64,000 nt of DNA from Mytilus galloprovincialis (Eukaryota; Mollusca; Bivalvia; Mytilida; Mytilidae): positions 14,924,646 to 14,988,645 of the forward strand of contig NC_134844.1 in assembly GCF_965363235.1 (NCBI RefSeq), written 5' to 3'. Within the stretch, counting starts at the first letter, position 1. Each line of letters starts with the position of its first letter. The position numbers and the translations under genes are program-made. The notes below the pieces were generated by a model. That model did not search any database, was not told the origin of the DNA, and was given only the letters and a program-made list of their open reading frames with translations. This document shows, piece after piece, positions 40,277 through 62,673 of the stretch.

Positions 40277-43200
40277 ATGGAAGTCAACAGCATTGTAGAA
40301 GCCCTTCGGGCCACTATGGACATAAATAATAGAGAACAAGCAGAGAAACAGCTTCACGAGGTGAGAAAAAAATGCAAGACACGTTTTCCAAAATGGCCGA
40401 CAACATGTGCGCTTTGACAGTTTTGAGTCATTTTAAAGAATATGGTACAACCAGTGATTGAAATCGACATTATTTTAAATACATAAAAAAATATACTAAA
40501 ATGTAAATAGAGATGTTTGAGAATTTATTGGCTTGATTGATTTAATAAATAATCAGTTTGAATAATTTGCTTTTAAAATGATTACTCATTAGACAATGTT
40601 AGATATTTAAGACATGATATCACTAAACAAGGAAATTATTATTTTTAATTTCCTTAAGATATGATGTCAAATTCAGACGTCTTCTGAGCACAAATTTTTA
40701 TCCCAATTAAAATGTTTTTAAAATAATTGTTCCTGTTGTCCTTGTGTGGAATGCTAGTCAATTTGTTCCAATACTGGCAATGTATATAATATAATAAGAT
40801 GTGGTAGACGTGCCAATGAGGTAACTCTCCATCTAAGTCGCAAGTTTTTAAAGAAAGACGATATAGTTTCAAGCCTATTTGTCCCAGATACCTTAACGGT
40901 GCATGTTTAAATTAAACTTCATTAAAAGATTTTGCTATTTATTTAAATGACCTGTTTGCATTGTTATCATTAAACTTTGTTCCAGAAGCTGTGTCTTGAT
41001 TGGCAACTAAAAGATCTTTGGGTTTTTATATTATTTTTATTCAGTGGCTGATCCAGGGGGGAGGGGTTGGAACCCCCCTTTTTTTAGGCCGATCAATGCA
41101 TTTGAATTGGGACATACATGTATAATTGGAAACCCCTTTATCCTGGGTTGGGAACCCCCCTTTTTGAAATGGCTGGATCCACCTCTGTTATAGTTTTTGA
41201 ATTCAAACAAGTCTGTAATTGTTTATGTATTTTATACATGTTTCTCGTTTTTTTTATAGATTAGATCTAGACCTTTGCTTTTCCCATTTGAATAGTTTTA
41301 CACTAGTAATTTTGGGGGCCTTTATAGCTTGTTGTTCGGCGTGAGCCAAGGCTCCTTGTTGAAGGCCGTACATTGACCTTTAATGGTTTACTTTTATAAA
41401 TTGTTATTTGGATGGAGAGTTGTCTCATTGGCACTCATACCACATCTTCCTATATCTAGTCACAATGTTTATAAAATTTGGATTATGAACCATTTATTAC
41501 CACTGGGCCATGTTAGTAGGAAGGTTGGCACCTTCAAAAGAATTTAACCCTGCCATGTTCTGTGTGTGCCTGCCCAAAATTTGTCCTATGGCAATCATAC
41601 CACTTCTTATTTTCACATATAATTACTATTCAAATTGGATTTATCTTTAATATTTAAAGCTTTTTAAAGTTCCACTGAACCTGTGAATGTGGCAGTTGTT
41701 TTTATTTTTTAAATAGTACAAAACTGTAGTTCCAGTTAAATTCGTGGTCATGGGATTGCAGAAAACTTTTGCAAAAATGCAAAAATTACTTTTGCAAAAG
41801 TTTTCTGCAAGACCATGACCACCAAATTTAACTTGAACTACAGTTTTGTACTATTTAGAAAATAGAAATTGGAACATTATAAAGAATTTAAATCTTTTTG
41901 TTACAAATTTACTTTCATATGTAAATCCTTGTTCTTGTCCTGAACATGCATGAAATATTTGCCACTGGATGTGAAGCAAATGCCAACTAAGCTAGAATTA
42001 AAAAATGTACCTAACACAATTCATGTATGTTGATATAGGTTCACAAGATAATAGGATTCTCTCCCTTGCTGTTACAAGTTGTAATGACAGAACAGTTGGA
42101 CATGCCAGTTAGACAAGCAGGTAATATATACATATATTGTCTAAATGAGCATAAGGGCCATAAAAAAGAATATTTTTGTTTGCCCTAACCCTACCTACCC
42201 AGAAAATAGCTGCCTACTCAAAATCTTTTATTGCCCTGATTAGAAAATATTTTTTTTTCATCGGATCTGCATGACAAAAAAAGCATCTGACACTTCCATT
42301 TCTCTTTTTCAAAATCAAAAAAACAAACTACCTACCTACTTACCCACTGTCTCTACTTTGGGTAGGGTTTGGGCAAACCAAAAATATTTTTAAGTGTGGC
42401 CAAGCATATAATTGAAAATTGATTGCGTATACAAATTTCTATTTTCTCACAAGATGATACATATTTAAAGATACATTTATCAAAGGGCAGTACTAATGTC
42501 ATGTAATTTAAATAAAAATTTGCATTATTCCAAATATAAATAAAATTCACTTTTTTCCCATAATGTACAAAAGACTCAACATTTAAGTTTGTCAACACAC
42601 TTTTAATCACTGTATATATGATTTGACATGGTTTAATGTTTTCATATTTAAACCTTGTTTGGACTTTACTCGATACAATAGTGTCAGATTTGTGGAAGTC
42701 TTTCAGACATGTACCAATATGCATGTATAGATTAAGATTTCATTGACACTACTATTTGTTATACCAGGGATCTCCATGGATGAAAATTGAACCATGGAGG
42801 AACTTTCACCATTACAAACCTTGTCTACGCTGTACAGTGTAGCGTGATCGGAAGTATTTTATCCCTCCATACAAGGAATGGTGAACATGCTAATTCATTG
42901 CTTATTTAAATTATATTTATTTGAATTTTCATTATAGAATTAGAAGTACATGTATCAATATTTTCATTTATTGCCGTTTTTAACCATTCAAATGCCAAGT
43001 CTTCATGGTCCCCCCTTAGTCGAGAATTACCAAAAGCTGTCATGAAGGTCCCCATGCAGATTTCTTTTATTTTTGGTAATTGTTATGGGGGTTAAAAATC
43101 ATCTGATGTGGAGCTTTTTTTTCGTGGACACTGTCAAATTCAGAGCCCATTACCGGTATGGCTGATATGTAGCAACAACAAAACAATTCGTACGGGTTAT

Positions 43201-46200
43201 GTAAAAGGTTAAAGAGATTTGTAAAGCAAACGTTGACAAATGAAAAGGTTTTTAATGACTTTATCTGGAAAAATTGATGCTGTGCAACATGCATCTTTCG
43301 AGTCTGAATAGAAACCGGAAACGCGGATGTATCAATTTGATTGTAATATACGAAATGAATTCGGAATTTAGATACGATATTTCTTTACAGGATTTTTTTT
43401 AAGTTTTTACTTTTAAACTTTTAAAGTAATTCTAAATTATCGTTACAGCAGTACTCGAGTTATTTGCGATGAAATAATATTTACTGTTTTGCGTCTTATT
43501 TTGTACTTCTTAAAAAAGGGGGATGCTGATTGCGTAAGTCAAAATAAAGCACGTGTTCGACTTGTTAAACTGTTTTCTTTGTAACTGGATTCATTTATTA
43601 ATTTATTTATTTAATCTAAATGATCATAATCATTTGCTGAAACTTAGTTGATTACTTCGACAAATGGATCGTTTATCCTCAGATAGTATTCTCCTGTCTG
43701 GTTTGTTGATTTACCTGTACAAGCTCAGGTACAAGTAATTAGCGATCTTAATCCGGATATCCATCAGGCGTTAGAACTGTATTGGATTATAATATAAAAA
43801 GCCTAAGGGTTATGCAATTACATGCATTTGATTATAATTGATAAAAAAATGGCGTTGGGTTACAAAAAACGATGAAGTTTTGAACGATGGCGGAAGACAA
43901 TTTAACGATGGCGCAAGACAATTTAACGATGGCGCGAGTCATTTGATGATGGCGCAAGACATTTGAACGATGGCGGGGCTCCATCGTTAAACAGGCCATG
44001 GAGATCCCTGTATACCCTTAGGGGGTTTCAAAGCCAGCTGAATAGTTTGTTTGAAACTCTTCTATTCTTTCACCAAGCATATTATTGTATTGAAATTTTA
44101 ATCCAAACTTAACTTCTAATAAGAATTTAGTTTAAAACTAAAAGAATTGCAATGGTTAAACTTCTTGTTTGTTGTGCTACATTCTGCATATGTTCATCAT
44201 TAGGTGCCATTTACCTGAAGAATGTGTTGACCCAGTCCTGGCAGGAAAAGGAAGTAGAGAACCCAGGAGATCCTGTGCCATTTAGTGTTCATGAACAAGA
44301 TCGTCAACAAATCAGAGATAATGTCATAGAGGCCATCATACATGCTGCAGGACCAATCAGGTAAAATAAAACAAGAGAATCAATCAAACATAAAAACACT
44401 AATATTGTCTCTACACACAAGTTACACTGTAGTCAATATCAATTTTACACTGTCGATCTACATGTATAAATGAAAAACCACTGAGACACATTGGTCTCAA
44501 ATCATTAGGTTAAATAAAAATTCCACAGAAAGTCAATAATGAATTAATAAAAAAAAACTTGGGTGTTGGTCAAAGTTTATATTGTATGAATGAATAAAAA
44601 CACATTTCAAATAATTAAACAGCTGCTTTATACAGTACAGCTTGCTAAAACTGGAATGATTTCACTTGTTATGTTTATAATATTCTACTATAAACTTGTA
44701 CTATTTACAGGTCCCAGTTATGTGTTATTGTTAGTCACATCATAAAGTGTGATTACCCAGGTAGATGGGCTGTTTTACCAGAGAAGATTGCCACTTTTAT
44801 CCAGTCAGAAAATCCCATGCAGTGGATGGGAGCTTTGATGACTTTGTATCAAATGGTTAAAGTTTATGAGTAAGTTAGATGCAGTGTTGTAGGATATTGA
44901 AGGTTTTATATGTATCAAATAGCAGGGAAAGTGTATTACACTATAAATAACCGATGCATATAGTTAGACCAAATAATAATATATGTGTTGTTACAGTTAC
45001 CCGAATTACCCTCTCACCTTAATTGAGAGATCCTTTTTTGTCGAAAATTAAACTTCAATAATTAAATTTAGACTGCTGTCATCTGAATTTCCCCAAGAAG
45101 TTTCTTCATGGCTAAGAAATCTACAAATTGATTACAGAAGGTAACTAAAATGAAAAAAAAAGGTAACATAGATATAGGAAGATGCTGTATGAGTGCCAAT
45201 AAGACAACTCTCCAGGCCACACTTAAAAATATTTTGGTTTGCCCAAACCCTACCCAAAGGTTGAGACAGTGGGTAGGTAGGTAGGCATTTTCTTTTCTTT
45301 TTTCAAAAAAAGAAATTGAAGTATCAGATGTTTATTAGTCTTCATGCCTATTTGATTTAAAAAAAAAACTTCTTCAAATCAGGACAATAAAAGAATTTGA
45401 GTAGGCAGCTTTTTTCTGGGTAGGTTACTAAGGTAGCGTTTGGGCAAACAAACCTATTATTTATTATGGCCCCATCCAAGTCACAATTTATAAAAGTAAA
45501 CTATTAAACATGTCTGTATATATTACAAATACTGTTTAGAACTTTGATCAGTATTTTGAAAACCGTTTACTGGAATATGGAATGATTATCAAAATCTAAT
45601 GTTTTAGATACAAAAGACCTGATGAAAGAAAGATACTCGATGATGCTATGGGAATAATGTTACCATTAATATACCAGAGGATTTCATTCATGATGCAGGA
45701 CCAATCAGAAGCCTCTGTCTTACTACAGAAACAGATACTAAAAATTTATTATGCCTTTATTCAGGTAAAATTTATCAGAATATAACTATATATTAGCAAC
45801 ATTCAGCGATTACCACATGGAAAACATTCACACAGAATTCATCAAAACTTGCACATATTCCTTTTGGACATGAAGTTTATTATGTACTGTTTTAATTTTT
45901 ACACATCACATCTACTTATTTTTATTTTGGGATGTGTCAATGGATTACAACTAACAATACCAGAAAAAAAGATCAATTTTTTGAATTATTTATCAATTTT
46001 TAAAAAGTTTGTATAACATCAAATGATGATAAACAGATTTTTCATGAAGACAGTGCTGCATTAATGTCGTTTTGACAGTGGCTTAACTGTCTGAAGTGAC
46101 GAGATTTGTCGTAGTGCTGATGGTGTATTTAAATCATATTTGGTTACAATACTGTTATGATATTGTTAGTTGTTTATTATTGTAGGACCTTGCTTATCTC

Positions 46201-49200
46201 GACATATCTGTAAATATGGTTTTGTCTGACATTTTATTAACCCCTTCACCGATTGCTGCCCAGACCGAAGCTACTCTGAGACGATGGCTTCCCTGGCTAC
46301 TATTACTTAAGTGGGAGATCTTCATGATAAATGTCAATAAAAACTTGTTTGTAGTTATTTGTGTATTTATTTCATTCACTAACACTATGTTCACAGTTTT
46401 GTTCATGTTTTGATAATTTTTTCATCATAAAATAATCAAATTTTCAAATTTTCGGCATTATCTAGGTGAAATTCTCAAAATTCTGCTCTTTGACCCCAAA
46501 TCCTAATTTTTTTAACCCAAAACGGCAAAATTTTGAAAAATTTTACGAGGCTGTACAAATTCCTCACACTGAACGATGTCCATTCCAAGTGTTTTGTACA
46601 TAAAATGACATTTTATGTCAAAAAAGTATACTAGTTTGACTTCAATTCTTCCATATTCTTTCAAAAAAAATGTTCCCTCATTTCAAATTCTCGTAAATTT
46701 CCTCTGATTTTGACACGGTTTTCAACAAACGGAAGCGCTATGTTTACACTTTCATCCGGGTATTCATCAAAGAAAGATAACTCATGTTTGCACGGTTATG
46801 AGTGGAAAATATAAAAGATGTATTCCGATCCCGGTAAAACGGGACTCATCGTCAGCTGTCTGAAGCGTGAATCCCGGTAAACCGAGACTCATCGGCGAAA
46901 GGGTTAAGGTATAATGTACATGATGTAGTTTATCTTATAGATTATGTTACCGGTATTTTGCAGAATTTTTTACCACAAGATGTTTTAACAAAAGAAGTGT
47001 TTACTCAGTGGATGGAAGTTATCAGACAGATTGTAGACAGACCTGTTCCTGAGGTAACTAGCTTTAAAATAGAATGGGTCATTTAAAGGCTTTTCCAGAA
47101 ATATTGTCCATGCTAAATGATGAAATAAACATTATTTATCTGACATTTGGTAGTCTGAAGATGACAGGAAAACATCAAATGATGAAAACACATTTTTCTA
47201 TGAAGGCAGTGCTATATTAATGTCGTTTTGACAGTAGCTTAACTGTCTGTCGTGAAGAAATTTGTCGTAGTGCTGATGGTGTTTACATATGATAAAAAAA
47301 AATATGAAGATGTGGTATGATTGCCAATGAGGCAACTCACCAGAGACCAATACCACGGCCCAGGCCATGTGTAAATTTCCAACAATCTATGGCTTCCATG
47401 AATTATTTTGATTCTAATAGGACAAATACGGTCATTAAAAAACTGAAGCAAGGGTGGGTATGCTGTGTGTGGCTGTTCTATTTTACGCCCTGTTAGATAA
47501 AGCTGAAATATTTTTATAAATATGTAGCTTGTGTAGGTTATTTCGTGAATGACTGCTAGAAAAAACTTTTTAATTCTTTAAATTCTCAAACCCAACATTT
47601 GCAATTTTTAATTTAAATGTTTTTCTCGGAAGCTTTCGTCAAATCCAAAGTTGACATTTTGTAACTAAGGAGCCGCCATGTTGACTTGCTGAAATGAGTA
47701 AATATGCAAATAATGCAATAGAAAAGAAAAGAAAACAAAACCTACCTCAAAAATCAGTTTAAATACATTATCATACGAATTCCGATAGTTCACGTAACAG
47801 AAAACTTTCAACTTTAGCGGTTTCATTTGTATGACGTGATGTTTTGAAATGACTTAAATGCGCCAAAAAGATTGATAGACTTTCACAGAATTTTATTTTA
47901 TTTTTATTTTGTTGATTTCTCCGAGCTCTTGTACATTACTTCTTTTTATTATGCATACGAATAAGGATAAAAGTTATTTTGTCTTTTTTTAATTGCACTT
48001 TTTAAAACAATAAAATCGACAAAGGGTCTGCAAATAGGTTCCATGTATACATATATATTTACGTGGGTAGTATATTGTAACAGCCATTACTATGTATAAC
48101 TCTGAGTCTGCGCTAAGTATATTTTATCGAGAAGTTATCACAGTGTTGTTTACAAGGCTAAAGAAGCACGTCATATTAGAATCTATAATAATATATTACA
48201 GGAAACCACCCAGATAGATGAAGATGAACGACCTGAGTTAGCATGGTGGAAGGTCAAGAAATGGGCAACACATATACTTGCTAGAGTGTTTGAAAGGTTT
48301 GTAAAAATGCATTAGGGCTATTCCATCACTGATTGTCATAATATTTTCTTACCTTACTTTAGTTATTTCCTACACCAATAAAACTGGCCCCCACCAATAG
48401 CCAAAAAGCGGTGGTTAAAAGTGGCGTTAAAAAACAAAAATCAAATCGATATCCAATTGGCCAGCTGTTCATTATAATATATAAGAGGGACTTGTAAAGC
48501 AGAAGGAACACTTATGGAATGTATGGAAAATTGCTTAGGGTTTTCACATTGTACAGTCAATAATATTCTTTCCTCATCAGTCATTTTGTAGCCTAGACTT
48601 TGAAAATGTCTAGGAATAGGTATCATATGTTAAATGTTTATTGCTGTTAGCATCATGTTTGACAATGTAAACCAGTTAACTTTAGTGATAGTAATATCTT
48701 CAATTCTACTAGTCTTATTTTATTCCAAAAAAAAATATACGAGATATTCCAATACTTGTACATAATACTTGTTACTTGTTATAGGTATGGAAGTCCTGGT
48801 AATGTGACAAAAGAATACAATGCGTTTGCTGAATGGTATCTGAAAGCATTTTCAGGTAAGCTACATTTGAAATAACTGCTATGGTAAACAAGTACACACG
48901 TTTAAAAAAACTTGATTCCTTTAGCTAGACCCTACAGGGTAAAAAAACTTGATTACTTTAGCTAGACCCTACAGGGAATTAACTCTTTTTTGCACAGTGT
49001 TTTTACACAGTGTGATTAAGACAAAATAAAATCTGACAAGCGGATGTCTGTGGACAGATCAGTTGTCATAGATGTGGGTATATTGTCAGAAACATTTAAT
49101 ACCTTTGTCTTCTGTCCATTGTTTAATAGTACAGTGGAAATAGAAGCACATAGGTGACAAACTACAACAGATAACATGTTTTTGTTTTTTTTCTTTTTAT

Positions 49201-52200
49201 GCTCCATTTATGGGCATTATGTTTTCTGGTCTGTCCGTTCGTCCTGCTTTAGGTTAAAGTTTTTGATAGGTAGTATTTGATGAAGTAGAAGTCCAATCAA
49301 TTTGAAATTTGGTACACCACATGTTCCCTATGATATGACCTTTCTAATTTTAATACCAAATTAGAGATTTTACCCCATTTTCACGGACAACTGAACATAG
49401 AAAATTATAGTGCATCCGTGTACTATGGACAAATTCTTGTTTGGCTGTGAAATTTGTATATCAACTGAGAATGGAATTTTGTTAATGCTGTTATCCTAAT
49501 GCTAGCAAGTTAAAGATTTAGTTGGCATGCTTGCTTTGTTTGTTTTCTCAAGCATTTTAATTAAGATTGTCATCTGCAACTACCAAAAATATTTACAAGT
49601 ATAATGTACACAAGCTGAGGCCCCACCTATCTTTTGATAGCAGATGTCAATCTTGATTACAATGCTTGAACAAACATTTATACAAATAAAGCAAGCAAGT
49701 CAACCAAACTTTTAACTGCTAGCATTAAGATAACAGCTTTAATGTTCAATAAATAGTGGGGTTATACATTGCATACCTGTGGAACTCTTTTTGTGGTGAA
49801 ATGTAAGCATGTATGTTCTTCCAATAAAAGAATTTTACTTCTATTTATATATATGTCTACTATTAAGATCCATTGATAGAAAAATGAAGTGGGCACTAGA
49901 GTTGCTTTCTTTTTTTTTTTTTTCAAAATACACCTCGTCTGACCTACATTTTCTTAGAAGTTTCCAATAAGCAAATGATGAGGGGAAATGTGAAATTTGT
50001 GAGTTTACTTCCAGTATAAAATGTCTCGTGTACACAAACCTGAAACCTTTATTTACAGTGAATAGTGTTGTAGTTGATGGTGAATAATACGTAAAAAAAA
50101 AATCAGAATTATTCTGTTTGCTTTTCCCTGGAATCAGGAAGTGATTTAACTTTATATGAAATAAATTATATTAGTAAGAAAATAAATCTTCTCCACTCTA
50201 AATGAAATTGACTTAATTCTTTATATTTAAACCAGCAACTCACAATGTCATATTTGTTGACCTAACTATTATATAATTTCTGACAAGCGGACATCTTTGT
50301 ACAGTTTAGTTGTCAAAGATGTGGGTATATTGTCAGATACATGAACCACCTCTGTAGTTCAACCATTGTAAATTATTATAATGTAGAAGTACAGTTGTGA
50401 CAACTTCCAAACTTTTCAAACACTTGCGTTCTTGTCTGTAAAAAAGAAGAAAAAAATATGATTGCAACATAATTTGAAACATTTCGGAGTTTTATTGAAA
50501 ATAAATCTTTTATCTTTGTATTGCATGCATGATTTCAGTGGTTTTGACTGTTAGCCTTGAACACCATATCAAATCAAATCAAAATTGAATAGAACTGGTT
50601 AATGGTAAAAAAATTGCACAGCAACAACTAGAACGAGCCCTCTAACCTTCCACCATCTGATGAACCTGAATAAATAAACAGATTTTTGTTATCAAATTTG
50701 ATGTGGTGTTCAAGGCTTTCATTAAAAGGGCATACTGTTTTCTCTCCCTTCTGTCTTGTTCAGTGGAATTTTTGTAATGTTTGTATACAAATAATGGAAC
50801 AATTGATAGAAAACAGCTGCCTACTTTGAGCACTAGTGACATTTGATTATATATTTTTTTTAAGGGTCTTGTGAGAAAGATCTCGTGTAGTGGCTAAGCA
50901 TTTTTTTTAATTTCTGACAAGCGGACATCTTTGTACAGTTCAATTGTCAAAGATGTGGGTATATTGTCAGATACATGAACCACCTCTGTAGTACAATCAT
51001 TGTAAATTATAATTATTATAATGTAGAATTACAGTTGTGACACACACAAACTTTTCAAACACTTTTGTGATTAAAAAACATTTTTATGATAGACTACTAG
51101 CATAATTTTCAACTATTTGGTATTGTTAGGAAAAACTTTTTTTTGTTTTGTAAAGAAGGCATGATTTCAGTGGTATTAAAGAGATTAAAAGAATTTAACA
51201 ATCTCATTTGTATAGTCACTTGTTTATGCATAACTATATAACGTATCTATTTTCCATTCAGTATAATGTGAATAACCTCTATTGTGTAAAAAAGTTTGTT
51301 TTTTAAACAGAAATCTTTTTTATTGATTTGGGGTTGTATATGGGTAGGTAGACTTCCAAAATGCTGATCAACTTTGTTCCTGCAAATAAATTAATAACCC
51401 ATTAATTTAAACTTATTATTATTAAATTTTGATATGCTGTTTCTGGTGTCAAAATGGAGGACAAGATTGATGTAAACGATTTTGCACTTCGGGTTTCAGA
51501 AGTTTTGGCCTTTCATTGCATTGAAGATGTCACTTTTAAATGTAATGAATGTTGTTATTTGACAGGGTCTTGTAGACATTCAAATGGTATCTAGTGGCTC
51601 AGCATTTTAAATATCTGACAAGCGGACATCTTTGTACAGTTCAATTGTCAAAGATGTGGGTATATTGTCAGATACATGAACCACCTCTGTAGTTCAACCA
51701 TTGTAAATTATTATAATGTAGAATTACAGTTGTGACAACCATATTCTTTTCAAACACTTGAAATAAAACTTATTATCTTTGTATGGAATATATAACTTTT
51801 GTGGTGTAAAGGAATGAAAATTTTGTATATGTATAAATTTATATAGTATCTCTTTTCCATTCAGTATAAAGCAAATAACCTTGACTTAATATTTTATGAG
51901 TTTATCAAAGTTGTTATTTGTACAGTGCTTTGTTGATTTTAAAATGAGCAACCTCTTATATAGTGGCATGGGATTTCTGACAAGCGGACATCTTTGTACA
52001 GTTCAATTGTCAAAGATGTGGGTATATTGTCAGATACATGAACCACCTCTGTAGTTCAACCATTGTAAATTATTATAATGTAGAAGTACAGTTGTGACAA
52101 CTTCCAAACTTTCAAACACTTGCGTTCTTGTCTGTAAAAAAGAAAGAAAAAAATATGATTGCAGCATAATTTGAAACATTTCGGAGTCATTGAAAATAAA

Positions 52201-55200
52201 TCTTTTATCTTTGTATTGCATGCATGAATTCAGTGGTTTTGACTTTTAGCCTTGAACACCATATCAAATCAAATCAAAATTGAATAGAACTGGTTAATGG
52301 TCAAGTAACTATAACGAGCCCTCTAACCTTCCACCATCTGATGAACCTGAATAAATAAACAGATATTGTTATCAAATTTGATGTGGTGTTCTAGGCTTTC
52401 ATTAAAAAGGCATACTGTTTTCTCTCCCTTCTGCCTTGTTCAGTGGAATTTTTGTAATGTTTGTATACAAATAATGGAACAATTGATAGAAAACAGCTGC
52501 CTACTTTGAGCACTGGTGACATTTGGTGATATTTTTTTTTTTAAGGGTCTTGTGAGAAAGATTCTGTGTAGTGGCTAAGCATTTTTTTTAATTTCTGACA
52601 AGCGGACATCTTTGTACAGTTTAGTTGTCAAAGATGTGGGTATATTGTCAGATACATGAACCACCTCTGTAGTTCAACCATTGTAAATTATTATTATGTA
52701 GAATTACAGTTGTGACACACATAAACTTTTCAAACATTTTTGTCATTAAAAACATTTTTATGATAGACTTACATAATTTGCAACTATTTGGTATTGTTAG
52801 GAAAAACTTTTTGTTTATTTTGTAAAGACGGCATGATTTCAGTGGTATTAAAGAGATTAAAAGAATTTAACAATCTCATTTGCATAGTCACTTGTATATG
52901 CATAACTATATAACGTATCTATTTTCCATTCAGTATAATGTGAATAACCTTTATTGTTAAAAGTTTGTTTTTTTAAACAGAAATCTTTTCTATTGATTTG
53001 GGGTTGTATATCGGTAGGTAGACTTCCAAAGTGCTGATCAACTTTGTTCCTGCAAATAAATTAATAAACCATTAATTTAAACTTATCAAATTTTGATTAA
53101 ACATATCAAATTTTGATATTCTGTTTCTGGTGAGAAAATGGAGGACAAGATTGATGTAAGCGATTTTGCACTTCGGGTTTCAGAAGTTTTGGCCTTTCAT
53201 TGCATTGAAGATGCCACTTTTAAATGTAATAAATGTTGTTATTTGACAGGGTCTTGTAGACATTCAAATGGTATCTAGTGGCTCAGCATTTTAAATTTCT
53301 GACAAGCGGACATCTTTGTACAGTTTAGTTGTCAAAGATGTGGGTATATTGTCAGATACATGAACCACCTCTGTAGTTCTACCATTGTAAATTATTATAA
53401 TGTAGAATTACAGTTGTGACAACCATATTCTTTTCAAACACTTGAAATAAAACTTATTATCTTTGTATGGAATATATAACTTTTGTGGTGTAAAGGAATG
53501 AAAATTTTGTATATGTATAAATTTATATAGTATCTCTTTTCCATTCAGTATAAAGCAAATAACCTTGACTTAATATTTTATGAGTTTATCAAAGTTGTTA
53601 TTTGTACAGTGCTTTGTTGATTTTAAAATGTGCAACCTCTTATATAGTGGCATGGGATTTCTGACAAGCGGACATCTTTGTACAGTTCAATTGTCAAAGA
53701 TGTGGGTATATTGTCAGATACATGAACCACCTCTGTAGTTCAACCATTGTAAATTATTATAATGTAGAAGTACAGTTGTGACAACCCATAAACTTGTTCA
53801 AACACAGGATTTCAGGTCAATACAAAAAATCCTGTATTTGTTTTAGCAATAAGTCTGATATATATATTTTTATGTTAAGTTTTTGCAACCTCATTTTCAA
53901 AAAATTTATTATGATCTTCAAGTGTATTTAAATATTTTTTTATTTTTCTTATTATCTTATTGCAGGTGGCATAATTGCAGTTTTATTTAAAGTATTGGAC
54001 CAGTACAGACAAAAGATATATGTAGCACCGAGAGTAATGCAACAAGTTCTCAATTATTTAAACCAAGGGTAAATATAAATAAGTAAAGATCGATGATAAA
54101 TAATTGCCAAAGACTTTCAAATTATGTCTTTAACATGTTGGATACACAAGTAGGGAGTTGGTTTGAAATGCTATTATTGATTATATAGCCAAAGTAAAGA
54201 ATGAACCATTTAGATATTTTGGTCAAAGGCCAAGGTCTTGTATATCTGACCCTACACAATACATCCATATTTCACTTTGTCATTCTACAAATAAATTGTT
54301 CAAAACAATAAAAAATGAGAAACATAGTTTTACCTATTGTACATGTACAAGATTCTGATACTAAGCATGAAAAAAGACCAGTCGTTAACATTATGAAGAA
54401 GTGTAAAACTAAAACAAGGATAAATATCTATAACTTTTACATAATTCTGTATTCTGACATAGACCAGTAGTTATTAATACCAGACATTTAAAATGTTAGT
54501 TTTGTTTTAGGAAAAAAATGCTCTTTTCCTATGTAAAATAATACCTGTTTACAAATTAATTTGATAACCTTCATTTTCATACAAAATTTTATAGATCTAA
54601 TGATTCTTTCTTATTATTTCCAGAGTCAGCCATGCATTTTCGTGGAAATACATGAAGCCTCATTTCCAGGTATGTCTATACGTCACATTTCCGTTTCAAC
54701 ATTCCACTAACTTAAGTCTGCCTCGTGTAAATTTATTAAACTCATACACAATTGAAAGAACCAAAACTTGGTAGACAAGAGTTTCAATTTGGACAGTAAG
54801 TCATTTATTGTTCTACACGCTTTTTATAACTTAGAAAATTGATTTTTTTTTTCGTTTCTGCGCTTTACTTATCAAAATTATATGAAACTTGTACGCAACT
54901 AGAAGTGTTTGTGCACAGTTCAATTTGGGATGTTAATTATTTATGATTCCAGAGTTATGCCCATTTTTGACTTGGAAATTGCAAAGCTTGAGTTGGAACA
55001 TTCATGTCTACAGACAGATTCTGCTTATTGTGTATTGTGACATTGATTTATTGTAAAAATGTATATTTTCAGACTTTTAATATAAGAAGTTTTATTTCCT
55101 TAGATGTGTAAAATTGTATATCTTCAAACTTTAATATTAAGAAGTTTTATTTCCTCTGATATATAATATAAATTTGAATATTTTCAGACTTTAATTCAAG

Positions 55201-56705
55201 AAGTTTTATTCCCTTTGATGTGTCACAGTGATGAAGATGATGAGTTATGGAATACAGATCCTCAGGAATACATCAGAGTTAAATATGGTAGGAGAATCAT
55301 AGCTTGAACTTAATTGCTACAGACCAAAGTAATTCATGCTTGACGGGTTGCTTTGTCCAAAGTTCTTTTAGTTGCATTGTTAATCAAGGGGGTAGAGGTT
55401 GGAATGGGTCCTATCATTAATTTCCTAGTTCTAACAAGTGTAAATCTTAAATCTATCCAAAAATAAAAGAGCTAAACCAATACTGTTTATAATTGAAGTC
55501 AGTCTTCACAAGTTCCTTTTCTTCAAAGGCTACTGCTAGTATTCATTTGGTTAACATTCATAGAGATTAAAACCAAAGTACACTCTTACATCGTTATTAG
55601 AGTATATTTGTCCTCACCAAACAAATGTTTCCTCCAGTAATGTTTTTTATTTATTTCCAGATGTGTTTGAAGATTTCCTGTCACCTGTGATAGCTGCACA
55701 AACATTATTTTATTCAGCGGCATCAAAACGAAAAGAAGTCTTGCAAAAAGCCATGGGATTTTCTATGCAAGTTATAAATGAACCAAATGTTAACCCAAGG
55801 CAAAAAGATGGAGCATTGCACATGATTGGAGCAGTTGCTGAAGTTTTATTGAAGGTTTGTTGTATAATCAAATGTAAAGAAATTTTCAGAATAACACTAA
55901 CCTAATTTGTAAACTATGCTTCATGTGAAATAATTATAAGAAAAGGTAAACATCCCAATATAAAGATAAGAACATATGAAGCCAATAAGTCCATTCTCCA
56001 GCAGAGAACTAGTGTTGTAGACGGTAAGCAACTATAGACCACTAAGTCTTCAAAACTGATTTTAAATAACAATATAAACAATTAGTTTGTGTAACACCAT
56101 GAAACTATATGATTTGGTTTTATATTAAAGAATTGTAACTTTAGTTTGAATGTAATGGCCTGTAGTAGAACTTGAACACTATGTTGACTTATGACCTAAC
56201 TTTGAACAAGTGATTCTTCAATGTGTTTTAAAACTTGATATTCTCTGTTATTGTATATTCAATTCAATTTTGATATGTGATATATTAATTTAAGGGAACA
56301 TAAATTGATGCATAAACAAATACCATTTTGCATTGTGAAAATTTTGCTTTGTCCTGTGACTTTAGTGAAAAATCAGCAATGCTAAATCAACTTATGGGAA
56401 TCCAAGGTGTCCGTCACTGATGTCCAGTGGATGCCATTTTGGCCCAAATACATTGTTCTTTATTATAAGTCGGTAGCTATTGAAACTGGTTAGTGGGTTC
56501 ACTTCTGAAATGTTTGTTATGTCGTTACAGAGAAAGATTTACAAAGATCAGGCAGAAATGATGTTAGTAAACCATGTCTACCCAGAATTCACCAATGAAA
56601 GTGGATTTTTACGTGCCAGGGTAAGTAATGAACAAAATATATGTTTTTATACGACCGCAAATTTTGAAAAAATTTTCGTCGTATATTGCTATCACGTTGG
56701 CGTCT

Positions 56706-56743
<38 letters not shown>

Positions 56744-59702
56744 CGGCGTCCGAATACTTTTAGTTTTCGCACTCTAACTTTAGTAAAAGTGAATAGAAAT
56801 CTATGAAATTTTAACACAAGGTTTATGACCATAAAAGGAAGGTTGGTATTGATTTTGGGAGTTTTGGTCCCAACATTTTAGGAATAAGGGGCCAAAAAGG
56901 GCCCAAATAAGCATTTTCTTGGTTTTCGCACCATAACTTTAGTTTAAGTTAATAGAAATCTATGAAATTTTGACGCAAGGTTTATGACCACAAAAGAAAG
57001 ATTGGGATTGATTTTGGGAGTTTTGGTTTCAATAGTTTAGGAATAAGGGGCCAATAAAGGGCCCAAATAAGCATTTTTCTTGGTTTTTGCACAATAACCT
57101 TAGGTTAAGTAAATGGAAATCTATGAAATTTAAACACAATGTTTATGACCACAAAAGGAAGGTTGGTATTTATTTTGGGAGTTTAGGACCCAACAGATTA
57201 GGAATTAGGGGCCAAAAAGGGACCCAAATAAGCATTTTTCTTGGTTTTCGCACTATAATGTTAGTATAAGTAAATACAAATCTATGAAATTTAAACACAA
57301 GGCTTATGACCATAAAAGGAAGGTTGGTATTGATTTTGGGAGTTTTGGTCCCAACAGTTTAGGAAAAAGGGGCCCAAAGGGTCCAAAATTAAACTTTGTT
57401 TGATTTCATCAAAATTGAATAATTGGGGTTCTTTGATATGCCGAATCTAACTGTATATGTAGATTCTCAACTTTTGGTCCCGTTTTCAAATTGGTCTACA
57501 TTAAGGTCCAAAGGGTCCAAAATTAAACTTAGTTTGATTTTGACAAAAAATGAATCGGTTGGGTTCTTTGATATGTTGAATCTAAAAATGTACTTAGATT
57601 CTTGATTATTGAAGTTTTTTTGGTCCAGTTTTCAAATTGGTCTACATTAAGGTCCAAAGGGTCCAAAATTAAACTTTGTTTGATTTCATCAAAAATTGAA
57701 TCCTTGGGGTTCTTTGATATGCCAAATCTAACTGTGTATGTAGATTCTTCATTTTTGGTCCTGTTTTCAAATTTCAAATTCTACATTAAAGTCCAAAGGG
57801 TCCAAAATTAAACTAAGTTTGATTTTAACAAAAATTGAATTCTTGGGCCTCTTTGATATGCTGAATCTAAACATGTACTTAGATTTTTGATTATGGGCCC
57901 AGTTTTCAAGTTGGTCCAAATCAGGATCTAAAATTATTATATTAAGTATTGTGCAATAGCAAGTCTTTTCAATTGCACAGTATTGTGCAATGGCAAGAAA
58001 TATCTAATTGCACAATATTGTGAAATAGCAAATTTTTTTTTAATTAGAGTTATCTTTCTTTGTCCAGAATAGTAAGCAAGAAATATCCTATTTGTGCAAT
58101 AGCAAGAATTTTTTTTAATTGGAGTTATCTTTCTTTGTCCAGAATCAACTTAAATCTTTGTTATATACAATATACAATGTATATACACTTTTTACTACCA
58201 ACTGATAAATTTAAATAATCTTTACCATTCAGTGATAACAAGCAGTTTTTTTACATCTTAATATTTTATGATGTATTTAAATGAGTAGTTATTGTTGCAA
58301 ACTCCATTAGAAATTTGAATTGATATCAGTTTTGAAAAAGGGAAACGGGGATGTGAAAAAAAAGGGGGGGGTTAAATTTTTCTCATTTCAGATTTCATAA
58401 ATAAAAAGAAAATTTCTTCAAACATTTTTTTGAGAGGATTAATATTCAACAGCATAGTGATTTGCTCAAAGGCAAAAAAAACCTTTTAAGTTCATTAGAC
58501 CACATTCATTCTGTGTCAGAAACCTATGCTGTGTCAACTATTTAATTTTAGATTTAAAAAGTTTGAAGAAGAAATCTTTAATTGATTTGTAAAATCTTGG
58601 CATTTGTTTTGTGTAAAAAAAAACCATGTAATGTCAAAAATTTGATCACAATCCAAATTCAGAGCTGTATCATGCTTGAATGTTTTGTCCATACTTGCCC
58701 CAACTGTTCAGGGTTCGACCTCTGCGGTCGTATAAAGCTGCGCCCTGCGGAGCACCTGGTTCAAATTTGATTTCAGCTTCTACGCATGTTGAAAACTGAC
58801 ATTTAAATTTGTTTAACTATATGGTTGTTTATTTGTTTGTCCAATAGATATAAAAAGATGTGGTATGAGTGCCAATGATACAACTCTCCATCCAAGTCAC
58901 AATTTTGTAAAAGAAAACCATTATAGGTCAAAGTAGTCCTAGCCACAGAGCCTTGGCTCACACTGAACAGCAAGCTGTAAAGGACCCCAAAAATTACTAG
59001 TGTAAAACCATTCAAAAGTGAAAACCAACTGTCTAATCTATTTAAAATAGAAGGAGAAACAGTTATGAACCACATCAACAAACGGCAAGTATGATTTGCA
59101 ATTTCTCAAGTTTATTTCAACAGATCTTTTTAAAAAGAACCATTTTCTCTCATTACTTTTATTCAGAATTTACTTTGTATTGTTTATATTGAAGGCAACA
59201 TAAATTATATTTGTTTGCATTGTGAAAATTTTGCTTAGTCATGTGACTTTAGTGAAAAATCAGCGATGCTAAATAAACTTATGGGAATCCAAGGTGTCCG
59301 TCACTGATTCCAGTGGATGCCATTTTGGCCCAAATACAGTGTAATACAGTATAAACACAATCTGCCGTTTGTTGTTGACAATTTTGATGATATAAATTAT
59401 TTGTTCATATTTAATGTTATTTGATTTGCCAAAAAAAGAAAAATCTAATCTTTTATGGCAGTTTTAACAAAATTCAATATATACTGTTATGTAACAGATT
59501 TTATGTTGTATGATTAAATTTATATTTTATTTCCAGGCTTGTTGGGTTTTAAAACATTTTTGTGAGTTGAAATTTAAAAATGAGAACAATTTGCGACAAG
59601 CATTAGAATTGACGCGGAATGCTTTATGTAGTGATAAAGATTTACCAGTACGGGTAGAAGCAGCTATAGCTTTACAGATGTTAATTACAGAACAAGAAAA
59701 AG
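40277..59702 (+). CDS. IPO7: Importin-7/8 family nuclear import receptor, N-terminal half
   Basis: Fourteen exons join in frame to 531 codons: 40277-40360, 42039-42120, 44204-44360, 44711-44869, 45608-45764, 46964-47053, 48202-48296, 48785-48855, 53966-54068, 54624-54669, 55188-55287, 55661-55854, 56531-56620, 59537-59702. All introns are GT-AG. The protein starts [20 protein letters not shown]. Residues about 20-100 form the importin-beta N-terminal domain ([20 protein letters not shown]). HEAT repeats follow, with family hallmarks [58 protein letters not shown] and [11 protein letters not shown]. The family binds RanGTP and carries ribosomal proteins, histone H1 and signalling proteins into the nucleus. 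The usual length is about 1040 residues, so the gene continues past the right edge. The next exon (expected to continue AKEY) was not found by 64000. Invertebrates usually have one gene for the vertebrate IPO7/IPO8 pair. Its introns hold twelve snoRNA-like sequences. Confidence 0.95.
40795..40872 (+). repeat. SINE-like fragment, importin intron 1
   Basis: AAGATGTGGTAGACGTGCCA, then GGTAACTCTCCATCTAAGTC: a diverged copy of the common family. Confidence 0.55.
41042..41187. mobile_element. MITE with CAG...CTG termini, importin intron 1
   Basis: The left end is CAGTGGCTGATCCAG; the right part has GGCTGGATCCACCTCTG. The flanks TTATT and TTATA fit a slightly decayed 5-bp target duplication. It is related to the element at 6611. 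Confidence 0.6.
41325..41455 (-). repeat. SINE-like mussel repeat, importin intron 1
   Basis: GTTGTTCGGCGTGAGCCAAGG, GGCCGTACATTGACC, then GTTGTCTCATTGGCACTCAT and CACATCTTCC: a well-preserved minus-strand copy. Confidence 0.65.
41703..41866. repeat. Long palindrome in importin intron 1
   Basis: The arms of about 75 bp are imperfect complements: AAATAGTACAAAACTGTAGT on the left faces ACTACAGTTTTGTACTATTT on the right, and the inner GCAGAAAACTTTTGCAAAA faces TTTTGCAAAAGTTTTCTGC. The loop is short. The transcript would form a long hairpin. It may be a MITE; no target duplication was established. Confidence 0.75.
42156..42401. mobile_element. MITE, GGCC ends, 3-bp TSD, copy 1
   Basis: The ends are GGCCATAAAAAAGAATATTT and AAATATTTTTAAGTGTGGCC. 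Further in, TTTGCCCTAACCCTACC faces GGTAGGGTTTGGGCAAA. AAG flanks both sides (42153-42155 and 42402-42404). It is 246 bp, non-coding, in importin intron 2. Confidence 0.8.
42765..44010. mobile_element. TIR element, CAGGGATCTCCATGG ends, importin intron 2
   Basis: CAGGGATCTCCATGG and CCATGGAGATCCCTG are perfect 15-bp TIRs. TATAC flanks both ends (42760-42764 and 44011-44015). CAGGG ends resemble hAT elements, but those make 8-bp duplications, so the class is open. Near its right end is an array of 21-22 bp units at 43879-43978 (GATGGCGCAAGAC and TTTAACGATGGCG). It is non-coding. Confidence 0.75.
43879..43978. repeat. ~21-bp tandem array, GATGGCG core
   Basis: About five units of AACGATGGCGCAAGACAATTT with small changes lie inside the 42765-44010 element, next to its right TIR. 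Confidence 0.85.
45171..45510 (+). repeat. SINE-like repeat split by a MITE, importin intron 4
   Basis: The left part ends at ACAACTCTCCA (45214). The right part resumes at CCATCCAAGTCACAATTT (45472). Intact copies elsewhere read ACTCTCCATCCAAGTCACAA, so the MITE boundaries and a 3-bp CCA duplication are exact. Confidence 0.85.
45215..45471. mobile_element. MITE, GGCC ends, 3-bp TSD, copy 2
   Basis: It begins GGCCACACTTAAAAATATTT and ends ATTTATTATGGCC. Inner GGTTTGCCCAAACCCTACCC faces GTTTGGGCAAAC. CCA is duplicated at 45212-45214 and 45472-45474. Same family as 42156, in inverted orientation. Confidence 0.85.
46016..46126 (+). ncRNA. C/D-box snoRNA-like, importin intron 5
   Basis: The terminal stem ACATCA pairs with TGGTGT (one G-U). 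C box ATGATGA is at 46023-46029 and D box CTGA at 46117-46120. Internal D' CTGA is at 46091-46094 and C' GTGACGA at 46096-46102. An internal hairpin (GACAGT with ACTGTC) lies before D'. The sequence before D, TTTGTCGTAGTG, would be the guide. It is 111 nt, and the same length and boxes recur in intron 6. It is on the long side for a C/D RNA, and no target was identified. Confidence 0.6.
47172..47282 (+). ncRNA. C/D-box snoRNA-like, importin intron 6
   Basis: Paralogue of the intron 5 copy, also 111 nt. Terminal stem ACATCA with TGGTGT, C box ATGATGA at 47179-47185, D box CTGA at 47273-47276. D' is CTGT and C' GTGAAGA. The 12 bases before D are identical to the intron 5 copy (TTTGTCGTAGTG), while other parts differ. 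That pattern suggests selection on the guide. Confidence 0.6.
47303..47362 (+). repeat. SINE-like fragment, importin intron 6
   Basis: GAAGATGTGGTATGATTGCC, then ACTCACCAGAGACCAATAC. It begins about 20 bp after the C/D-like RNA. Confidence 0.55.
48904..48976. repeat. Two-copy tandem repeat, ~37 bp
   Basis: AAAAAAACTTGATTCCTTTA and AAAAAAACTTGATTACTTTA are each followed by GCTAGACCCTACAGGG. Confidence 0.8.
49034..49162 (+). ncRNA. H/ACA snoRNA-like, intron 8 copy 1 (diverged)
   Basis: The lower stem TGACAA with TTGTCA and the pocket (GCGG and GGGTATA) match the other copies. The upper stem is ATGTCTGTG with CATAGATGT, which pairs throughout by means of G-U pairs although its sequence differs from the others. 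The second hairpin has upper stem CCATTGT with ACAGTGG and lower stem ACCT with AGGT; its pocket differs from the other copies. It ends ACA plus 3 nt. The H box is poor. Compensated stem changes support a real RNA. Confidence 0.65.
49482..49742. mobile_element. Foldback MITE in importin intron 8
   Basis: TTAATGCTGTTATCCTAATG on the left faces CATTAAGATAACAGCTTTAA on the right. Inner ATTAAGATTGTCATCTGC faces GCAGATGTCAATCTTGAT. Both arms are about 95 bp and imperfectly paired. Confidence 0.65.
50281..50405 (+). ncRNA. H/ACA snoRNA-like, intron 8 copy 2 (type A)
   Basis: Two hairpins and two boxes fit H/ACA rules. Hairpin 1: lower stem TGACAA/TTGTCA, pocket GCGG and GGGTATA, upper stem ACATCTTTG/CAAAGATGT. 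H box ACATGA starts 16 nt after the upper stem. Hairpin 2: lower stem CAC-CTGTA/TACAG-GTG, pocket GTTCAAC and TAGAAG, upper stem CATTGTAA/TTATAATG with a 4-nt loop. ACA starts 16 nt after that stem and lies 3 nt from the inferred 3' end. It is 125 nt, on the sense strand of the host intron, as for animal intronic snoRNAs. No rRNA or snRNA target was identified. Confidence 0.78.
50915..51045 (+). ncRNA. H/ACA snoRNA-like, intron 8 copy 3 (type B)
   Basis: Hairpin 1 and both boxes match copy 2. The second hairpin's apical loop is 6 nt longer (131 nt in all) and its pocket reads GTACAAT and TAGAAT, so its guide differs slightly. It ends TGTGACACAC. Confidence 0.75.
51616..51740 (+). ncRNA. H/ACA snoRNA-like, intron 8 copy 4 (type C)
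   Basis: Same structure as copy 2. The 3' pocket side is TAGAAT instead of TAGAAG. 125 nt. Confidence 0.76.
51978..52102 (+). ncRNA. H/ACA snoRNA-like, intron 8 copy 5 (type A)
   Basis: Essentially copy 2, shifted by 1697 bp with its flanks. Pocket GTTCAAC and TAGAAG. 125 nt. Confidence 0.77.
52596..52720 (+). ncRNA. H/ACA snoRNA-like, intron 8 copy 6 (type B)
   Basis: Counterpart of copy 3, shifted by 1681 bp. It lacks the extra loop bases of copy 3 and keeps the 3' pocket TAGAAT and the end TGTGACACAC. Confidence 0.75.
53300..53424 (+). ncRNA. H/ACA snoRNA-like, intron 8 copy 7 (type C)
   Basis: Counterpart of copy 4, shifted by 1684 bp. The second pocket reads GTTCTAC and TAGAAT. Confidence 0.75.
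53662..53786 (+). ncRNA. H/ACA snoRNA-like, intron 8 copy 8 (type A)
   Basis: Counterpart of copies 2 and 5, shifted by 1684 bp from copy 5. The duplicated block stops shortly after it, about 180 bp before exon 9. Confidence 0.77.
55061..55176 (+). pseudogene. Two decayed copies of the exon 11 splice acceptor region
   Basis: Importin exon 11 begins at 55188 after TTTTCAG and reads ACTTTAATTCAAGAAGTTTT. Two diverged tandem copies precede it, at about 55061-55110 (TTTTCAGACTTTTAATATAA) and 55116-55165 (TCTTCAAACTTTAATATTAA), both with GAAGTTTTATTTCCT. Spacing is about 57-60 bp. The first keeps an AG acceptor but its frame is broken; the second has lost the acceptor. They look like short local duplications of the exon's 5' end and are probably spliced out. 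Confidence 0.75.
56326..56455 (+). ncRNA. Second H/ACA-like snoRNA, importin intron 12
   Basis: Hairpin 1 has lower stem GCATTG/CAATGC. H box AAATCA is at 56384-56389. Hairpin 2 has upper stem GGTGTCC/GGATGCC topped by ACTG/CAGT, pocket AATCCAA and ATTTTGG, and a short lower stem TGGG/CCCA. ACA at 56450-56452 lies 14 nt after the upper stem and is followed by 3 nt. A copy sits in intron 13. The upper part of hairpin 1 is less certain. Confidence 0.58.
56646..58736. mobile_element. TIR element with tandem arrays, importin intron 13
   Basis: TTTATACGACCGCA (56646-56659) is complementary to TGCGGTCGTATAAA (58723-58736). Near the left end is a GTC microsatellite (about 56708-56743). Then come about four units of ~115-120 bp (GAATAAGGGGCC, AAATCTATGAAATTT) and about four units of ~115 bp (GGTCCAAAGGGTCCAAAATT, TCTTTGATATGC). 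Short AATTGCACAATATTG-type repeats follow near 57940-58020. Frames of 60-108 codons in the arrays are incidental. A second copy starts at 60165. Confidence 0.7.
58852..59065 (+). repeat. SINE-like mussel repeat, importin intron 13
   Basis: AAAGATGTGGTATGAGTGCC, CATCCAAGTCACAATTTTGT, CTTGGCTCACACTGAACAGC and AAAATTACTAGTGTAAAACC: one of the fullest copies of this subtype. Confidence 0.65.
59216..59341 (+). ncRNA. Second H/ACA-like snoRNA, importin intron 13
   Basis: Paralogue of the intron 12 copy. The lower stem is GCATTG/CGATGC, where the changed base still pairs as G-U. H box AAATAA is at 59271-59276. Hairpin 2 and its pocket (AATCCAA and ATTTTGG) are identical, and ACA is at 59336-59338. 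About 40 bp of upstream flank is also partly shared (AACATAAATT). Confidence 0.58.
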
Positions 59703-61249
59703 GTATGGGTATTTTCTGTTATAACATAGAAGGTTAGATGTTATGAGTTACTCTCAAGTGTTTGACCTTTTGGTTATGTCTGATATTTCTGGCAAAATCC
59801 ATCATGTTGACCCAGTTCTGTTCTGTTAAACTATGGGATTGCATGTAAGTTTCTGATTGAAATAATCACTTCTTTTGAGGTAACTTTCAGCATCCCATAC
59901 AACACTTAAAAGTTGTCAAGTCTGGTGGTTAATCAAAACATGCTTATATCATATGAATTATGAAGAGTAGTAAATGTAAGGTTAAATGTGTCTTAATTGA
60001 TAGTTCTCACTTGACAGGTTTTCTTGTAGTACTAAATACTACATGGTCAGCAGAATTTTTTTTTATCTATTTTCATTTGATATGATAAAAAACCTTATTA
60101 AGTTAGCATACACCGTTCATTAATATTCTTATGATGCTAATATTAATTTTATGTTGATTTATTTTTATACGACCGCAAAAATTTTAATTTTTTGGTCGTA
60201 TATTGCTATCACGTTGGCGTCGTCGTCGTCCGAATACTTTTAGTTTTCGCACTCTTACTTTAGTAAAAGTTAATAGAAATCATTGAAATTTTAACACAAG
60301 GTTTATGACCACAAAAGGAAGGTTGGGATTGATTTTGGGAATTTTGGTCCCAACATTTTAGGAATAAGGGGCCAAAAGGGTCCAAATAAGCATTTTCTTG
60401 GTTTTCGCACTATAACTTTAGTTTAAGTGAATAGAAATCTATGAAATTTTGACACAAGGTTTATGACCACAAAAGGAAGGTTGGGATTGATTTTGGGAGT
60501 TTTGGTCCCAACATTTTAGGAATAAGGGGCCAAAAAGGGCCCAAATAAGCATTTTCTTGGTTTTTGCATCATAACTTTAGTATAAGTAAATAGAAATCTA
60601 TGAAATTTAAACACAAGGTTTATGACCATAAAAGGAAGGTTGGGTTTGATTCTGGGAGTTTTGGTCCTCCTAACAGTTTAGGAATAAGGGGCCCAAAGGG
60701 TCCCAAAATTGAACTTTGTGTGATTTCATCAAAAATTGAATAATTGGGGTTCTTTGATATGCCGAATCTAACTATGTATGTAGATTCTTAATTTTTGGTC
60801 CCGTTTTCAAATTGGTCTACATTAAGGTTCAAAGGGTCCAAAATTAAACTTAGTTTGATTTTAACAAAAATTGAATCCTTGGGGTTCTTTGATATGCTGA
60901 GGGCTATTCCAGAAAAAAATGTATGGGGGGGTTGGAAGGCACTTTATTTTTATACCCATCACCCACTAAATTACATTTCATCATGGGACAACTACCCATA
61001 CAATTCATTTTCAGTTTGACCCCATTACCCATATAATTTTAAAAAGTATAAACTAGCTTTTTCAAGTTCACAAATTAGCAACCAAAATTATATGCATTTT
61101 GATACCAGAAAGTGGCTACAGTATATTGATGACAGTATATACATGATATATGTTAATAAGTTTTCAAATTCTTAAGTTTTTTTTGCACTTTTGACAATAT
61201 CAAATGTTTGATATAAATTATTGGTGACTTGGTTTTTTTGCGCCTGTCC

Positions 61250-61505
61250 CAAGTCAGGAGCCTCTGGTCTTTGTTAGTCTTGTATTATTTTAATTTGAGT
61301 TTCTTGTGTACAATTTGGATATTAGTATGGCGTTCATTATCACTGAACTAGTATATATTTGTTTAGGGGCCAGCTGAAGGACGCCTCCGGGTGCGGGATT
61401 TTCTCGTTACATTGAAGACCTGTTGGTGACCTTCTGCTGTTGTTTTTTCTATGGTCGGGTTGTTGTCTCTTTGATACATTCCCCATTTCCATTCTCAATT
61501 TTATT
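61250..61505 (+). repeat. Mussel repeat pair inside the transposon
   Basis: CCTGTCCCAAGTCAGGAGCC, then GGGGCCAGCTGAAGGACGCC, GGGTGCGGGATTTTCTCG and CTATGGTCGGGTTGTTGTCT. Same family as 24677 and 23465. Confidence 0.65.
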
Positions 61506-62400: not shown

Positions 62401-62673
62401 AAGTAATATGTTGACAATTAAAGTTTGGTTTTAAGTTTATTTTGTAAAATTGTGAAAGCCATCAAGATGAAAAACAGCAATAAAACAATTTCCATTTTTA
62501 TCTGGTAAACATGTGTATTGTAAACCCATGTAAATAAACCCATGAAACCTTATCTTCTGCTGTCAGATGTTAAATAATGTTGGATATTGTGTTAAACAAA
62601 TTTATTCAAATAAGTCATCTTCTTTTAGATTTCTGTTTTCTAGGTCCTTGTCTTCTAATTTAAGAATGTCAGC

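Follow-up and report, generated by a model that had tools for sequence, protein, structure and literature searches.

The 64,000 nucleotides (nt) of Mytilus galloprovincialis contig NC_134844.1 analysed here (the window, with positions counted from its first letter) contain an importin-7 gene, and one intron of this gene (48856..53965, + strand) carries eight copies of a unit of 123-129 nt with the anatomy of a box H/ACA small nucleolar RNA (snoRNA). When human IPO7 was used as tblastn query, a colinear series of importin-7 exons was obtained from 40277 to 59704; 14 of 22 rows were kept, and seven rows with E 3.7-8.0 and one weak piece (438-471) conflicting with a better exon were dropped. By count of these exons the array intron is the eighth of the gene, a number which may be off, since the retained rows include two of low significance (E 0.012 and 0.013). 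Furthermore, 55660-55854 matches residues 381-445 of importin 7 in PDB entry 6n88_A (E 1.4e-24), and an IBN_N domain was found at 44203-44361 (E 2.2e-8). The intron itself is 5,110 nt long, of phase 1 and of the GT-AG type (GTAAGC...TTGCAG), and translation across both of its borders gives an in-frame importin-7-like peptide from the flanking exons. An earlier reading of the letters, made without database searches (the sequence-only reading), had placed all copies within a single importin-7 intron on the sense strand; the in-frame exons, the tblastn series and the 6n88_A match support this host assignment as well as the confinement of the array to one intron in sense orientation. The first copy starts 177 nt past the 5' splice site and the last ends 182 nt short of the intron end.

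Anatomy of the eight copies

All eight copies lie on the + strand, start with CTGACAAGCGG and end with GTGACA. Copies c2 (50280..50402), c4 (51615..51737) and c6 (52595..52717) were each delimited by fold, match to an H/ACA descriptor and alignment, and descriptor matches were likewise obtained for c3 (50914..51042), which has a 6-nt insertion apically in hairpin 2, and for c5 (51977..52099) and c8 (53661..53783), which are identical to each other. Copy c7 (53299..53421), with a nearly continuous hairpin 2 in which the candidate pocket is closed, was missed by the descriptor. Identity among c2-c8 is 91.5-100%, compared with 69-74% between these and c1 (49033..49159), a diverged copy with a degenerate H box and a different hairpin 2 but with pocket 1 and lower stem as in the others. 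The sequence-only reading had already listed eight copies on this strand, with coordinates right within a few bases (array starts 49033-53661).

The extent of the unit was followed in 25-nt bins for 11 of 12 copy pairs, c4/c5 being dropped since the extracted stretches overlap. In pairs with different flanks (c2/c3, c2/c4, c3/c5, c2/c8) identity within the unit is 92-100% per bin, falling to 68-74% in the bin with the c3 insertion, and that in the first upstream bin is 16-52% (76% for c3/c4, which have partly common upstream sequence). Downstream, the different-flank pairs still agree at 64-80% in the first bin, dropping in the second to 27-52%, no more than unrelated sequence shows here. When c1 was compared with c2 or c5, the bins inside the unit gave 84, 88, 76, 56 and 64% and the adjoining bins on either side 22-48%. 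The unit appears to be largely discrete, with a 5' block edge at the predicted 5' end of the RNA and a 3' edge about 25 nt past the RNA, fading within 25-50 nt.

A model built from the eight copies (R1) recovers all of them with E 2.7e-28 or better, as it must by construction, and gave no further + strand match in the window. On the minus strand nine weaker matches within the array (E 0.0004-0.1) mirror the hairpins, and three lie elsewhere (E 1.6-4.3). The H/ACA descriptor, run over both strands of the 64 kb with thresholds tuned after the copies were known, returned eight rows, all of them on c2, c3, c4, c5, c6 and c8; it missed c1, c7 and a separate candidate at 59215 described below.

Every copy adopts a hairpin-hinge-hairpin-ACA arrangement in its minimum-energy fold (z -3.6 to -6.2), and a fold as good was reached by none of 200 shuffles for seven copies and by one of 200 for c3. 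The H box consensus ANANNA is present in seven of the eight copies as ACATGA (50339..50344 in c2), and the corresponding ACATTT of c1 does not conform to it; the ACA box (50400..50402 in c2), which in guides of this class stands three nt short of the RNA's 3' end, follows hairpin 2 in all eight. Two hairpins with a hinge and ACA in each copy, a clear H box in seven and a poor one in the first are also what had been noticed from the letters. The consensus structure comprises 42 pairs; pairing is realized in 97.3% of its 336 cells, a proportion reached by 4 of 500 shuffles, and in hairpin 1 in all 184. Only 8 of the 57 columns of hairpin 1 vary, and the 25 that make up its lower stem and pocket are all constant (hypergeometric P 0.006). 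In c1 the changes in hairpin 1 are limited to the upper stem and loop, where three altered pairs (C-G to U-G, A-U to G-U, U-A to G-U) still pair, and the pocket is identical, in line with the earlier remark that this copy keeps its first pocket and an upper stem of changed but still pairing bases. As lower stem and pocket are spared and the altered pairs kept, the location of the changes in c1 is stronger evidence than covariation.

Pocket 1 is formed by a 5' arm GCGGA (50287..50291 in c2) and a 3' arm UGGGUAU (50322..50328 in c2), both on the + strand and invariant in all eight copies, and the minimum-energy folds place two pairs across it. The H box is 16 nt away as long as the outermost pair of the upper stem, an A-U, stays closed; H/ACA pockets usually lie 14-16 nt before their box. 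The value of 16 nt, which the sequence-only reading had given for both pockets of its type A copies, is correct by hand count, for pocket 1 with this pair closed.

Predicted 28S rRNA target of pocket 1

H/ACA guides bind their target through the two arms of a pocket, between which a U-N of the target stays unpaired. Human 18S and 28S ribosomal RNA (rRNA) cores and the small nuclear RNAs (snRNAs) U1, U2, U4, U5 and U6 were scanned for such sites, and pocket 1 gave the same best site for all eight copies: 28S GUACCCA-UA-UCCGC, with 5+7 pairs including one wobble and with U-A unpaired. Here GCGGA pairs with UCCGC and UGGGUAU with GUACCCA, the last pair being the U-G wobble. The score was 14.8, with 9.8 or less for the second-best site, and was reached by 5 of 2000 shuffled pockets and, among shuffled target sets, by 3 of 500 for c1, 8 of 500 for c2 and 0-3 of 40 for five copies in a separate run. 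The comparison of the pocket halves with 18S, 28S and snRNAs that had been proposed with the sequence-only reading therefore ends in one clear 28S site for pocket 1, in a conserved segment, on human rRNA and a printed primer. Nearly all letters of this site are printed as the 28S primer TACCCATATCCGCAGCAGGTCT in Table 1 of PMC9402732, which corresponds to the predicted target minus the outer wobble base.

Hairpin 2 presents a different picture. In the minimum-energy folds an internal loop of size (5x4 nt) is seen in c3 only; c1 and c7 have an almost uninterrupted hairpin 2, and in c2, c4, c5, c6 and c8 most of the candidate pocket is taken up by pairs. The arms of hairpin 2 vary between copies, and against the human rRNAs and snRNAs no consistent site was detected and none at all in five copies; weak matches in c3, c6 and c7 (scores up to 7.6), different for each copy, were rejected as targets. 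Of the internal pockets initially described for both hairpins, the first is invariant in 8/8 copies, but the second is doubtful, and hairpin 2 is probably not a guide. This doubt is based mainly on the variable arms and the missing consistent target; the closed fold alone is indecisive, as pocket 1 is bridged too.

The D+5 rule places methylation guided by C/D snoRNAs relative to box D. For SNORD99, a guide for 28S Am2774/Am2787 according to a table in PMC9941101, the sequence displayed in PMC11193114 shows the antisense GCGGATATGGGA preceding CTGA. This antisense spans the 28S segment predicted for pocket 1, although SNORD99 is of the C/D class and an unrelated RNA. The residue it methylates is the neighbouring A, as positioned by the D+5 rule. 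We take this A to adjoin the predicted U on its 5' side, which would make the latter human 28S U2775 (old numbering), next to Am2774; U2775 is not known to be a pseudouridine in human or yeast rRNA.

A search for an animal 28S in contig collections (four 28S patterns and one 18S pattern) and one plasmid search led only to L001 and L002-L004. The first, the bacterial contig Mangrovicoccus ximenensis NODE_1, contains eukaryotic 28S rRNA at 4128-4482 on the minus strand (LSU_rRNA_eukarya, 188 bits), a stretch which is a chimaera or contaminant and presumably plant- or yeast-like. It reads TACTCATAACCGC at the target site and would fit pocket 1 less well. Three IMG/VR 'viral' contigs have exact matches of 22 nt (28S) or 24 nt (18S) to patterns conserved in eukaryotic rDNA, namely L002 at 61-82, L003 at 3858-3881 and L004 at 4221-4244, and the end of L002 continues as 28S.

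Interpretation and growth of the array

From the folds, the boxes, the invariant pocket and its 28S complementarity we conclude with good confidence that the eight copies together form one family of guide snoRNAs of the box H/ACA class, encoded in one importin-7 intron. Location, orientation, anatomy, pocket invariance, target complementarity and duplication history can be demonstrated from the DNA itself, and the array is very probably functional. Very probably its H/ACA guides are genuine and of a familiar kind, their arrangement being the uncommon part: with box H/ACA guides the array has in common the hairpin-hinge-hairpin-ACA order, ANANNA (7/8), ACA (8/8), an intronic sense position and an internal pocket, here 16-17 nt before the H box, with bipartite rRNA complementarity, and it differs in conserving a pocket in hairpin 1 only, in the 3-bp base of hairpin 2 in c2-c8 and in matching no Rfam family.

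Several observations weigh against this interpretation. Copy c1 is without a proper H box, hairpin 2 has a base of only 3 bp in c2-c8 and no conserved pocket, and the distance from pocket 1 to the H box becomes 17 nt, one over the usual range, when the outer A-U pair is opened for the target. Covariation is weak, with two pairs showing double changes (reached by 24 of 500 shuffles) and further pair types no higher than in shuffles (243 of 500), and gene conversion may have contributed as much as selection to the near-identity of c2-c8. At gathering score the window gave no match to any Rfam family, and the 12 Rfam matches obtained for 48850-54000 at E up to 10 include no H/ACA family. Finally, the target site was read from human rRNA and one printed primer, and not from mussel 28S.

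The spacers allow the growth of the array to be followed. A recent duplication of 1.7 kb consists of a left half (50403..51976) with spacer A1, c3, spacer B1, c4 and spacer C1, and a right half (52100..53660) with A2, c6, B2, c7 and C2, as recognized from spacer identity (A1/A2 93%, B1/B2 92%, C1/C2 238/239) and from the homology switch points, which lie inside copies c2, c5 and c8 at the duplication edges. Such switches inside snoRNA copies are expected for unequal crossing-over between copies, with which the duplication is consistent. In addition, the neighbouring spacers after c2, c3 and c4 are related to each other (A-B 69% over 140 nt, B-C 83% over 59 nt, A-C 78% over 45 nt; 0 of 100 shuffles each). 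Since these spacers are themselves related, the unit would have spread by DNA tandem duplication including the flanks and not by insertion of a mobile unit. The spacer between c1 and c2 and the tail after c8 showed no significant kinship to the other spacers (scores reached by 5 to 76 of 100 shuffles). The apical form TTTAGTTG occurs in c2, c6 and c7, although the sister positions are c3/c6 and c4/c7, and such reshuffled variants suggest that conversion among copies has occurred as well. As read from these relationships, the eight copies are not independent units: besides the diverged c1 there are copy classes of older date and the 1.7-kb block duplicated recently. Amplification would have proceeded through tandem duplications of DNA, accompanied by exchange or conversion between copies.

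Whether the number of copies is inflated by the assembly has to be asked for the 1.7-kb block in particular, as one half of it might be the other haplotype placed in tandem, leaving five copies in the true intron. Bivalves can be very heterozygous, two haplotypes could differ at such levels, and the spacer identities given above are possible between haplotypes. The homology switches, however, fall within homologous snoRNA copies, where unequal crossing-over would put them, the degree of identity varies along the block, and the sequence to the left of c2 and to the right of c8 is without significant kinship to other spacers. We regard an inflated count as unlikely.

A second explanation accepts the H/ACA domains but not their guiding of rRNA: exonucleases would be halted by c1 and c8, and what is left would be a long intronic RNA that combines several H/ACA domains and has a structural or regulatory function, comparable to snoRNA-ended long non-coding RNAs (sno-lncRNAs). 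Two snoRNAs in one intron can give rise to such RNAs, as described in the accessible text of PMC11028025, sno-lncRNAs with H/ACA ends are mentioned in that of PMC4234469, and the outer copies c1 and c8 are 177 and 182 nt from the intron ends. Conservation is nevertheless highest in hairpin 1, at its lower stem and pocket, which favours guiding, and the decayed spacers speak against a conserved long RNA. Although both functions can coexist, a source of long RNA in place of guides appears improbable.

Even less credence can be given to a tandem repeat or a transposable element, similar to a short interspersed nuclear element (SINE) or a miniature inverted-repeat transposable element (MITE), that merely resembles an H/ACA RNA. 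Repetition as such, the near-identity of c2-c8 and a MITE-like long inverted repeat in the c1-c2 spacer (49482-49742) would agree with it, but within the 64-kb window the + strand unit is confined to this intron, and neighbouring spacers are related at 69-83% over 45-140 nt. Moreover, the diverged copy retains pocket and pairing, pocket 1 fits 28S, and no A-tail or target-site duplication was noticed on reading the sequence, a point to which no dedicated test was devoted. Decayed pseudogenes alike through gene conversion only, as might be argued from the shuffled variants (TTTAGTTG), the closed hairpin 2 of c7 and the improper H box of c1, are very improbable, as pocket 1, lower stem 1 and ACA are present in every copy, even in c1, which is probably too diverged for conversion.

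Release of the RNAs, related systems and further features

If the array is a family of guides, the intron would be transcribed along with the importin-7 mRNA, dyskerin-type H/ACA proteins, this class of RNA being bound by dyskerin, NHP2, NOP10 and GAR1, would assemble on each copy, and the resulting ribonucleoproteins would direct pseudouridylation to the U of 28S GUACCCA-U-AUCCGC, with hairpin 2 possibly serving in assembly instead of guiding. More copies would probably lead to a higher dose of a single guide, and dosage may have been the reason for the amplification. According to the accessible text of PMC11028025, intronic snoRNAs of animals are mostly released by exonucleases from the debranched intron. 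Exonucleases alone would leave one long RNA bounded by c1 and c8, and therefore eight RNAs would imply internal cuts between the copies, unless longer multi-snoRNA products resembling sno-lncRNAs persist. The most specific scenario, which we put forward tentatively and do not consider the probable one, is a lineage-amplified single guide, with the intron as polycistronic snoRNA precursor, either cut between copies or kept as multi-domain sno-lncRNA, and with a high-dose pseudouridine directly 3' of the methylated A2774 of human 28S. Since one intron holds the same guide eight times, the array offers a natural opportunity to ask how internal copies are set free and whether modification of a given rRNA site is limited by guide dose, and it yields a concrete and checkable pseudouridine prediction for a mollusc.

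RNase-III-like hairpins were considered as processing signals in each spacer; inverted-repeat arms of at least 30 nt are, among the spacers, listed only in c1-c2 and A1. The stretch 49482-49742 in the former consists of three nested long inverted repeats (arms of 36-37 nt, 83-86% complementary) forming one large MITE-like hairpin; its minus strand matched the plant MIR172 model below gathering score (47.8 of 70 bits, E 2.2e-8), probably due to the hairpin shape. In spacer A1, 50543-50727 contains a hairpin-forming inverted repeat with 32-nt arms (84% complementary), and 52243-52399 in A2, which matches the A1 hairpin stretch and for which no arms are listed, gave a sub-threshold MIR161 hairpin match. 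Near its start, at 48903-48976, the host intron has a 37-bp unit twice in tandem (97%). Seven mir-2542 rows on hairpin 1 (E 1.3-6.1; 18.5-20.9 bits, gathering score 60) were rejected as chance hairpin matches. A phage collection searched with a 7-kb region gave no match, as was the case for viral contigs searched with a snoRNA-derived pattern.

Clusters of H/ACA isoforms in Drosophila were reportedly described in detail by Huang and co-workers in 2005. Intronic snoRNA clusters of this fly at the Uhg genes, lola, Arpc2 and dom (PMC13228274) are similar to the array in having several snoRNA copies at one host gene, the number of copies per intron not being stated in the accessible part of that source. 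The fly mfl cluster, by contrast, has one snoRNA gene per intron, as given in the available text of PMC1821038. The sequence-only reading had called eight copies in one intron unusual for an animal, where one snoRNA per intron was said to be the rule; one per intron is indeed predominant in animals, several sharing an intron in some cases and then possibly yielding sno-lncRNAs (accessible text of PMC11028025), but this is a tendency and not a law, as 48 of 400 annotated human snoRNAs form pairs within single introns (accessible text of PMC4234469). The human intronic pairs and sno-lncRNAs thus share with the array more than one snoRNA per intron and differ in being pairs, as opposed to eight copies of one guide. 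Among the literature matches listed, covered as titles and abstract openings with subscription papers largely outside, no published account of this importin-7 array was found, and none of those listed for molluscs is a snoRNA study.

The 28S targets of SNORA23 are sites other than the one predicted for the array. In human, this snoRNA is encoded between exons 13 and 14 of IPO7 (PMC8763008), the same host gene as that of the array, which lies in the eighth intron by tblastn exon count. No SNORA23 match was obtained at E up to 10 in 48850-54000 or 56600-64000, the other introns having been scanned at gathering score only. The array as SNORA23 orthologue was rejected for the missing similarity and the apparently different intron by exon count.

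A separate H/ACA candidate lies at 59215-59341 on the + strand in another importin-7 intron (about 56624-59533), by exon count apparently that between exons 13 and 14, the position of human SNORA23 as given in PMC8763008. It is not matched by R1. The Rfam families SNORA66, SNORA14 and snoU109 align to it from a common 5' end and with 3' ends within three bases, all below gathering score in a 271-nt scan (24.2 bits, E 0.029; 24.1 bits, E 0.013; 22.5 bits, E 0.16, respectively), and SNORA14 has E 0.37 in a 7.4-kb scan. Its best rRNA site is U966 of human 18S, the SNORA14 site, at a score not above shuffles (19 of 40). The candidate folds with z -3.35, which 1 of 200 shuffles equalled, and has an H box AAATAA and an ACA followed by GTG.

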